A stretch of 64,000 nt of DNA from Chlorobiaceae bacterium (GTDB taxonomy: Bacteria > Bacteroidota > Chlorobiia > Chlorobiales > Chlorobiaceae), in the NCBI GenBank assembly GCA_013334965.1, contig JAAXWO010000007.1:1-64000 (forward strand), read 5' to 3'. The translations under genes and the position numbers were made by a program. How positions within the stretch are numbered: the first letter of the stretch is position 1; every line of letters starts with the position of its first letter. Below the pieces are notes generated by a model. The model was not told where the DNA came from. It was given only the letters and a program-made list of their open reading frames with translations, and did no database searches. This document shows positions 42,186 to 46,984 of this stretch, in pieces.

Positions 42186-43985
<1,800 letters not shown>

Positions 43986-44274
43986 GTCCGGAACCTCTTG
44001 CCAACAGGGCGTTAAGCCCCTACATACTCTTCTATTGCCCCGGATTATAGCCTCCCGCATTCAGGAGCCCCGATTCGTCGGGACGACGGACATTCAGATA
44101 TTCTCCTTCTTCTGTTGCCCCGGACTTCAACCTCCCATATTCAGGAGTCCCGACTTGTCGGGACGACGGACATTCAGATATTCTCCCTCTTCTGTTGCCC
44201 CGGACTTCAACCTCCCATATTCAGGAGTCCCGACTTGTCGGGACGACGGACATTCAGATCTTACATCCTCTTCT

Positions 44275-44449
44275 GTTGCCCCGGACTTCAGTCCGGGGGA
44301 GAGAATATCAAATAAACCTCTCCGGACTTTAGTCCAATATCTTCCTGCTTCCCCCCACTACTTCATTCGACTGTTCAATATCGAAGATATTGGACTAAAG
44401 TCCGGGTTATTTTTGGGAGCGCTATCCCCGGACTGAAGTCCGGGGCAAC
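44275..44449. repeat. Nested palindrome element, copy 1
   Basis: The outer arms 44275-44298 and 44426-44449 are perfect 24-base reverse complements, and each arm itself contains the palindrome CCCCGGACTTCAGTCCGGGG or its complement. The inner arms 44322-44344 and 44383-44405 are a second perfect 23-base inverted repeat around a 38-base loop. Together they could form a cruciform or, as RNA, a very stable branched hairpin on either strand. Confidence 0.9.
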
Positions 44450-44560
44450 TGGAACAGGGATAATGGTATCGATCATTCATTTACCCCTCGTTTCAACCTC
44501 CCACATTCAAGAGTCCCGACTTGTCGGGACGACGGACATTCAGATCTTACATCCTCTTCT

Positions 44561-44735
44561 GTTGCCCCGGACTTCAGTCCGGGGGAGAGAATATCAAATA
44601 AACCTCTCCGGACTTTAGTCCAATATCTTCCTGTTTCCCCCCACTACTTCATTCGACTGTTCAATATCGAAGATATTGGACTAAAGTCCGGGTTATTTTT
44701 GGGAGCGCTATCCCCGGACTGAAGTCCGGGGCAAC
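44561..44735. repeat. Nested palindrome element, copy 2
   Basis: It is 175 bases long, 286 bases after copy 1 and almost identical to it; the visible difference is TTCCTGTTTCC for TTCCTGCTTCC in the loop. Both pairs of arms are intact. Confidence 0.9.
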
Positions 44736-44924
44736 TGGAACAGGGATAATGGAATCGATCATTCATTTACCCCTCGTTTCAACCTCCCACATTCAGGAGT
44801 CCCGACTTGTCGGGACGACGGACAGTCAACTTCTTGCATCCTCTTTCAATAGCCCCGGACTTCAACCTCCCATATTCAGGAGCGCCTTCAGACCGACGGA
44901 CATTCAGATCTTACATCCTCTTCT

Positions 44925-45099
44925 GTTGCCCCGGACTTCAGTCCGGGGGAGAGAATATCAAATAAACCTCTCCGGACTTTAGTCCAATATCTTCCTGTTT
45001 CCCCCCGCAACTGCATTCGACTGTTCAATATCGAAGATATTGGACTAAAGTCCGGGTTATTTTTGGGAGCGCTATCCCCGGACTGAAGTCCGAGGCAAC
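44925..45099. repeat. Nested palindrome element, copy 3
   Basis: It is 175 bases long, 364 bases after copy 2. The loop has CCGCAACTGCATTC for CCACTACTTCATTC, and one base of the right outer arm is changed (AGTCCGAGGCAAC), so the outer stem has a single mismatch. An extra small unit at about 44840-44910 separates it from copy 2. Confidence 0.9.
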
Positions 45100-45290
45100 T
45101 GGAACAGGGATAATGGAATCGATCATTCATTTACCCCTCGTTTCAACCTCCCACATTCAGAAGTTCCAACTCATCGGATCGACGGACAGTCAGATATTCT
45201 CCCTCTTCTGTTGCCCCGGACTTCAACCACCCATATTCAGGAGTCCCGACTTGTCGGGACGACGGACATTCAGATCTTACATCCTCTTCT

Positions 45291-45465
45291 GTTGCCCCGG
45301 ACTTCAGTCCGGGGGAGAGAATATCAAATAAACCTCTCCGGACTTTAGTCCAATATCTTCCTGTTTCCCCCCACAACTGCATTCGACTGTTCAATATCGA
45401 AGATATTGGACTAAAGTCCGGGTTATTTTTGGGAGCGCTATCCCCGGACTGAAGTCCGGGGCAAC
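45291..45465. repeat. Nested palindrome element, copy 4
   Basis: It is 175 bases long, 366 bases after copy 3. The loop has CCACAACTGCATTC, intermediate between copies 1/2 and copy 3. All arms are perfect. Confidence 0.9.
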
Positions 45466-45556
45466 TGGAACAAGGATAATGGAATCGATCATTCATTTAC
45501 CCCTCGTTTCAACCTCCCGCATTCAGGAGTCCCGACAAGTCGGGATAAAACATCTC

Positions 45557-46984
45557 TTATGCATCCAGCAACTGCTTCAATATCTCGTTCACGACCTGTG
45601 GATTAGCCTTCCCCTTCATCTTCTGCATGCACTGACCGACGAAGAACCCGAAGAGCTGCGGCTTGCCGCTCCGGTACTTTTCGACCTGACCGGCGTTCGC
45701 CTCGAGAATCTCCCTGATCGCATCTTCGATGGCTCCGGTGTCGGAAACCTGGGCGAGCCCCTCGCGTTCCACGATGCTTTCCGGGGAAGCTTCGTCGCCC
45801 TGCATGATCTCGAACACCTGCTTTGCGATGGTATTGCTGATCGTGCCTGCGTTGATGAGACGGATCAGGCCGCCAAGGCGTTCGGCTGAAATGCCGAACT
45901 CTGCGATATCGAGATACTTCTCCTTAAGGGTGCGCATCACTTCGCCCATCACCCAGTTCGACGAGGCTTTCGCATCGCCGCAAACCGTCAGGGTCTGTTC
46001 GAAATAGTCTGCGAGTTCGCGCTCCACAGTCAATACGCCTGCATCGTAAGCCGGAATGCCGAGTTCAGATACGAAGCGCGCCGCCCTGTCTTCCGGAAAC
46101 TCCGGCAGCTCCTGCTGCATGCGATGGAGCATACCGTCGTCAACCAGCACCGGCACCAGGTCGGGATCCGGGAAGTATCGGTAGTCATGGGCGAACTCCT
46201 TGCCCCTCATCGAGCGGGTCTCCAGCTTGTCGGCGTCCCAGAGACGTGTCTCCTGGAAAATCGTACCGCCTGCCTCGATCACCTCGATATGACGTTTGGC
46301 CTCAAACTCGATGGCCTTCTCGACGTTCTTGAACGAGTTCATGTTCTTGATCTCGGTACGGGTGCCATACTCGGTGGCCCCTACAGGCCTGACCGATACG
46401 TTGGCGTCGCAGCGCAGGCTGCCCTCCTCCATGTTGCCGTCGGAAACGCCGAGATACTTGACGATCTGCCGGATCTTCTGCAGGTAGGCTGAAGCCTCCT
46501 TCGGGGTTCGCATGTCGGGATAGCTGACGATCTCAAGCAGCGGCACGCCGCAACGGTTCACGTCGATGTAGGTGTCGTCGCCGATGTCATGGATGGACTT
46601 GCCGGCATCCTCCTCGATGTGGATTCTTACCAGGCGAACATCCTTACGCCCCTCTTCGGTATCGATCTGGAGCAGCCCTTCGGAGCAGATCGGCTCTTCA
46701 AACTGGGATATCTGATACCCTTTCGGAAGATCGGGATAGAAATAGTTCTTGCGAGCAAGAATGGAGTGACGGGCTATGGTGCAGTTCGTGGCCAGTCCGA
46801 GCTTGACAGCATCTTCGACCACTCGGGCGTTGAGCACCGGCAACGCGCCTGGAAGCGCCAGGCATACCGGACAGACGTTGGTGTTGGCCGACTTTCCGAA
46901 CTTTGCGGAACATCCGCAGAACGCCTTGCTCTCGGTGTTGAGCTGGCAGTGAACCTCAAGGCCCACGACGATTTCATAATTCAT
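45557..46984 (-). CDS. gatB: Asp/Glu-tRNA amidotransferase subunit B
   Basis: A 475-residue subunit of GatCAB, which converts Glu-tRNA-Gln or Asp-tRNA-Asn to the amidated form. It starts [20 protein letters not shown], with the zinc site CGCS and [24 protein letters not shown], and the C-terminal YqeY-like tail domain ([16 protein letters not shown]). The last codon lies one base after the repeat array. gatA and gatC are not in the window. Confidence 0.97.

Follow-up and report, generated by a model that had tools for sequence, protein, structure and literature searches.

In the 64,000-nucleotide stretch of DNA analysed here (the window), four nested palindromes of near-identical sequence stand in tandem between two convergent genes, xseB and gatB. 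What are these elements, and how did they come to be multiplied at a single site? Our answer, which we consider very probable, is an ordered tandem cluster of REPIN/BIME-type non-autonomous elements, presumably mobilised by a linked transposase. Lacking a gene of their own, the window elements probably hitchhike on that enzyme.

Architecture of the array between xseB and gatB

The array lies in the gap between xseB (exonuclease VII small subunit, 43716..43985, + strand, Pfam PF02609) and gatB (Asp/Glu-tRNA amidotransferase subunit B, 45557..46984, - strand, Pfam PF02934/PF02637), and the Pfam matches agree with the gene identities first proposed. Copies 1 (44275..44449), 2 (44561..44735), 3 (44925..45099) and 4 (45291..45465), none of which has an assigned strand, are all present as 175-bp elements where the original prediction had placed them, offset from one another by 286, 364 and 366 bp. 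The described perfection of the arms was likewise borne out: the 23-nt inner arms are all perfect, and the 24-nt outer arms have one mismatch in total, in the right outer arm of copy 3. Each outer arm consists of GTTG and a 9-bp stem with a 2-nt loop (hairpin A), and the right outer arm is the reverse complement of the left, so that GTTG tags are outermost at both element ends. Copy 1 opens with GTTG-hairpin A, then come a spacer and a hairpin C arm; a 38-nt loop leads to the second hairpin C arm, and another spacer to the closing hairpin A-CAAC. Its left REP, the GTTG tag plus CCCCGGACTTCAGTCCGGGG, was located by pattern search, with covariation in its stem, at 44275..44298 (+ strand; equivalents in copies 2-4 at 44561, 44925 and 45291), and its inverted right REP at 44426..44449 (- strand; equivalents at 44712, 45076 and 45442). 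Nested inside the outer pair is a second inverted arm pair, CCGGACTTTAGTCCAATATCTTC, which forms hairpin C: the arm at 44322..44344 (+ strand) pairs with 44383-44405, with equivalents at 44608, 44972 and 45338. The hairpin C module was also found beside tnpA genes.

A third hairpin, GTCCCGACTTGTCGGGAC (hairpin B), stands in the spacers, and a linker connects it to the GTTG that follows. Spacer 1 (44450..44560, + strand) has hairpin B at 44513-44530 and after it the linker GACGGACATTCAGATCTTACATCCTCTTCT, which leads on to the GTTG REP of the next element; this module order is repeated beside tnpA in relatives. Hairpin B stands at 44799-44816 in spacer 2 (44736..44924, + strand), together with a degenerate partial unit, while spacer 3 (45100..45290, + strand) holds a degenerate copy near 45170 and an intact one at 45243-45260. 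The right terminal partial unit (45466..45556, + strand) contains the hairpin B variant GTCCCGACAAGTCGGGAT at 45529-45546. At the left, the three tandem units of ~80 bp that had been predicted are present at 44030, 44110 and 44190 (44030..44269, + strand), with a truncated REP (GCCCCGGAYT...), hairpin B and linker. Across the array hairpin B has five exact copies and two with 1-2 mismatches, and it is degenerate at two more spacer positions, near 44880 and 45170. Tandem degenerate units of ~75-80 bp on a plan similar to that of the left units were also observed beside the host tnpA (L027:880-1330).

In the window the outer-arm pattern matched 16 times, always inside the array; the chance expectation is 0.00 (shuffles 0), which puts the array far beyond chance. 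Folded as single-stranded DNA, an element reached -55.7 kcal/mol, compared with -19.0 ± 3.0 kcal/mol for shuffles (z = -12.3). Rfam gave nothing above gathering score for the element, only sub-threshold matches to miRNA-precursor-like hairpins.

A dispersed repeat family and its linked transposase

The host genome, judged to be a Chlorobaculum, is a 2.48 Mb draft in 20 contigs, and counts are from pattern searches and fetched stretches. Whether related copies exist elsewhere had been left open by the original prediction; the outer arm was found at about 50 distinct sites in the genome, against 0 matches for a reversed control pattern. The stretches fetched around these sites held 28 inverted pairs with outward-facing tags, spread over nine loci (C3, two; C5, eight; C7, three; C8, four; C12, one; C13, one; C15, four, the array in this window; C18, four; C19, one). 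Pair sizes are locus-specific and range from 167 to 220 bp, except for the C13 pair (696 bp). Six loci, five besides the window array, contain at least two pairs in tandem as near-identical copies. Element interiors differ between loci, and the earlier description of conserved arms and variable loops holds clearly at this level; the copies within the array differ at too few positions to bear on it. In a rough ORF survey of the host genome, repeat clusters were intergenic; the genes on either side were convergent or co-directional, and no cluster was seen flanked by a divergent pair. In the largest cluster (G000:C5:27987-30420), eight inverted pairs, each 218-220 bp long, follow one another in tandem at intervals of about 316 bp, and REP variants differ between its two ends.

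A short palindrome behind a conserved tetranucleotide, in many intergenic copies, is the anatomy of a REP, and the inverted pair as basic unit is that of a REPIN. The tags of 33 representative ends were GTTG (25), GTAG (3), ATAG (3) and ATTG (2), that is, RTTG/RTAG (RTWG) with GTTG commoner than GTAG, and not the canonical GT[AG]G. Hairpin A occurred in these ends as 9 distinct stems with 81/81 cells paired. Double changes numbered 8, whereas shuffles averaged 2.0 and 0/2000 of them reached 8, a figure that is not an exact probability because the ends are related. From locus to locus, both sides of hairpin B vary likewise (GTCCCGAC/GTCGGGAC, GGCGGGAT/ATCCCGCC, GCAGGGTT/AACCCTGC, GGAGGGTT/AACCCTCC). 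Either selection or copying is at work on the hairpins, and such compensatory changes support selection.

The genome-wide search for a Y1 (IS200/IS605-like) transposase that had been proposed yielded one enclosed by the array's own end type. The 696-bp C13 pair encloses a gene, here tnpA, for a 152-aa HUH/Y1 transposase (Y1_Tnp, E=1e-26), and its ends run into two-hairpin ends of the same type as those of the window elements; a Y1 transposase gene flanked by the family's own repeats constitutes a REPtron. By sequence, the closest solved structures are IS200/IS605-type transposases (2xm3, 2a6m and others). The protein scores above the NCBIfam IS200/IS605 cut-off and below that of REP_Tyr_transpos (21.5 bits, cut-off 80). 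Its tyrosine motif, YINGQTEHH, does not have the Y---NP form of RAYTs (class 2 TnpA-REP), and its DHIH, WQ and Y---Q--HH agree with subclass 1.2 (DH[IV]H, WQ, Y---Q--HH, ~148 aa). We place it in TnpA-Y1 subclass 1.2, an assignment by motifs and not by a tree including the published set. Four other Y1_Tnp genes in the host genome, long open frames of 238-336 aa with two in tandem on C2 (G000:C2:67787-69265, G000:C16:5771-6091 and G000:C12:101264-101509), were rejected as the cognate enzyme, since the several kb fetched around them held no family-type hairpins.

Relatives, rival readings and a proposed origin

The repeat was present in 21/21 Chlorobaculum genomes and 0/65 sister-genus genomes. 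Close tnpA homologues (61-72% identity) were found in ten other Chlorobaculum genomes. Tagged hairpins lie near tnpA at all 11 loci, the host included, on both sides at eight (L078-L084, L087) and on one side at three (L085, about 0.5 kb away, L086 and L088); at the ten non-host loci, both sides carry them in 7/10. Two genomes, G010 and G011, have tnpA flanked by a different palindrome, RTAGCCCCCGGCTTCAGCCGGGGG, which had 6 hits in G010, 5 in G011 and at most 2 in any other genome. tnpA is single-copy and occupies a conserved site within three groups of species, and thus behaves as a resident gene. Repeat counts were 78, 59, 16, 16, 63, 5, 1, 59, 12, 16 and 24 in genomes with tnpA, and 9, 7, 63, 2, 17, 14, 2, 20, 41 and 9 in genomes without detected tnpA. 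Read by eye, these ranges overlap with no clear relation (63 repeats in G005, where tnpA was not detected, but a single main-type repeat in G011, which has the gene), and we rejected the idea that repeat number tracks tnpA presence within the genus, a result that speaks against mobilisation by this enzyme.

The xseB-gatB intergenic distance is 1571 bp in the host vs 20-392 bp in relatives, three of which have a single ~85-bp hairpin B-linker-REP unit there and the others no copy. Other inverted-repeat families were observed at this site in other species (L096, L102, L105, L106, L108, L110, L111): GGGAACGCCNAGCTCCAGCTNGGC... in G007 and G011, and GTCATTCTGAGTCCGACG...GAAGAATCC... in G001, G014, G015, G017 and G020. 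With such families inserted in several species, the site looks like a hotspot for palindromic repeats.

Could the array instead belong to a classical MITE family, in which short, internally deleted copies of an IS200-like element are excised and pasted as a unit with its LE and RE ends? The 175-bp and the 696-bp tnpA elements do share ends of a common two-hairpin design, and in other Bacteroidota subclass 1.2 genes sit between similar ends in low copy, in the manner of insertion sequences. However, the interiors of eight gene-less loci showed no convincing similarity to tnpA (1/8 at P = 0.01); the gene-less elements are therefore not simple deletion derivatives, and on this comparison we rejected them as deletion copies of tnpA. 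The single-copy tnpA at a site conserved within groups of species also argues against a MITE family, as do the symmetrical inverted hairpin ends, since those of IS608 are asymmetrical. We regard a MITE origin as unlikely. Multiplication of a single copy by assembly was a concern raised from the outset, and the genome is indeed a 20-contig draft, but the copies differ by a few point changes, the spacers vary in length and content, and similar tandem clusters occur at five other sites of the same genome; an artefact is extremely improbable.

Retention of the array mainly for a host function, namely transcription termination or mRNA 3' end protection at xseB-gatB, would suit its position between convergent genes, the convergent or co-directional setting of the other clusters in the rough ORF survey, and the terminator-like hairpin with T-run in every copy (hairpin plus TTATTTTT, 44390..44415 in copy 1, + strand, a consensus match only; equivalents at 44676, 45040 and 45406). 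These terminator-like sites are nevertheless on the + strand only, and the 4 found compare with a shuffle mean of 2.0. Most relatives hold no copy of the repeat at xseB-gatB, and the family itself is scattered over the genome and linked to a transposase. We judge this explanation to be quite improbable as the main one; the termination role originally suggested for the hairpins is possible, with one such hairpin per copy arguing weakly for it.

The REPIN-type reading suggests the following course of events. TnpA would recognise RTWG-tagged hairpins in single-stranded DNA, for example the lagging-strand template, and would cut and re-join there, so that gene-less pairs are moved or copied in trans. 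One pair would have landed between xseB and gatB by transposition, and the pair with its flanking hairpin-B spacer would then have multiplied locally by recombination or replication slippage; such multiplication would explain near-identical copies at offsets of 286, 364 and 366 bp. An intergenic site between convergent genes presumably tolerates insertion, and the hairpins may terminate transcription as a by-product. The original prediction had offered a BIME/REP-like structure and a non-autonomous mobile palindrome as separate options. Both gained support, the former from inverted, tagged, dispersed pairs and a transposase enclosed by the same ends, the latter as a reading in which mobility is inferred, and they turn out to be one thing. 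Its statement that no named family matches is correct for the sequence and wrong for the architecture, which is that of REPINs/BIMEs; overall, its interpretation is partly supported.

Known systems and subclass 1.2 beyond Chlorobaculum

REPINs are among the commonest bacterial repeats. They form ordered tandem clusters, flanks included, and the proposal is that a transposase acting in trans moves them pairwise (PMC3116915). REP transposases cleave single-stranded DNA adjoining the hairpin, with the tetranucleotide as recognition or guide (PMC8266576). The window array has the anatomy of a REPIN cluster. As in the REPIN/BIME and RAYT systems of Pseudomonas fluorescens SBW25 and E. coli (PMC3116915, PMC8266576), tagged hairpins stand intergenically in inverted pairs, ordered tandem clusters include the flanks, and a single-copy Y1 transposase gene is flanked by the same hairpins. 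In contrast to those systems, the tag here is RTTG/RTAG and not GTAG, the 167-220 bp unit has a second, nested hairpin pair, and the transposase is of subclass 1.2, not class 2; the tag, and a protein that lies on the IS200 side and scores below the RAYT cut-off, speak against the REPIN-type reading. TIRtrons (PMC3733652), described as double inverted repeats for P. putida ppf607 and P. fluorescens pfs4255, also have a transposase between compound inverted repeats, the compound repeat being a REP beside a second stem-loop, and many gene-less copies; the likeness is one of layout, and host phylum and transposase class differ. With IS200/IS605 elements (IS608, ISDra2) the family shares the HUH/Y1 superfamily (PDB 2xm3, 2a6m) and hairpins at both ends. 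It departs from them in that no tnpB was seen in the 696-bp element, the ends are symmetrical and inverted, and gene-less pairs outnumber the gene.

What is new is the enzyme. TnpA-Y1 subclass 1.2 has been tabulated as REP 'no', with terminal structures generally absent (Quentin et al. 2018, PMC6006769). The Chlorobaculum protein resembles that subclass in its DH[IV]H, WQ and Y...Q..HH motifs, ~150 aa and low copy, but here tagged hairpins flank the gene and have dozens of genomic copies. The published lack of REP association did not hold at several loci from Chlorobaculum, the sister genus and other Bacteroidota. A literature search of limited scope found no report of REP or RAYT in Chlorobaculum.

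In the sister-genus genome G027, a distantly related homologue that shares the subclass 1.2 motifs (28-38% identity group) adjoins a tandem array of another repeat. This array consists of eight tandem inverted pairs, CTACCAATAT...ATATTGGTAG (L090:17-1405 and 1966-2055), and related repeats (CCCGTAGGGRYGRCATATTGGTAG) were seen in 27/86 family genomes. Across a Bacteroidota sample, the tnpA profile matched in 173/392 genomes. The non-Chlorobiaceae loci examined were the best-scoring ones and no random sample; 16/16 had the Y...Q..HH and WQ motifs, and among the 15 with usable flanks an inverted repeat common to both sides exceeded the shuffle maximum clearly in 8 and marginally in 2, compared with 0/18 xseB control loci. 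Two loci (L152 and L158) have the order hairpin A, AT-rich spacer, hairpin C, as in Chlorobaculum. High-copy families outside Chlorobi were rejected, as palindrome copy number was only 0-7 in the genomes tested. Judging from these genomes, terminal palindromes seem to accompany subclass 1.2 beyond Chlorobaculum as well, and the large population of the window-type repeat is a Chlorobaculum feature.

A broader reading, to which we give even odds as a whole, is that subclass 1.2 Y1 transposases form an independent REP-associated lineage in Bacteroidota/Chlorobiota, with tagged or compound hairpin ends, low-copy IS-like units in many genera and a REPIN-like population in Chlorobaculum. On this view the REPIN lifestyle would have arisen a second time, and would have escaped notice because its tag reads RTTG or sits on the opposite side of the hairpin. 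A single enzyme subclass that occurs as low-copy units across many Bacteroidota, and alongside an amplified repeat population in one genus, bears on how an ordinary insertion sequence turns into a domesticated transposase with a gene-less follower population. If true, this reading would open the transition from IS to REPIN to comparative and biochemical tests, and the published view that REPs are absent from subclass 1.2 would need correcting.

Exact matches to the 24-base outer arm were also observed outside Chlorobi, in a Bacteroidales MAG (L075:3905-3928) and in Dyadobacter beijingensis (L071:2686-2709). The 7.7-8 kb fetched around them held no tnpA homologue; in D. beijingensis, a second similar hairpin lies close to the match.
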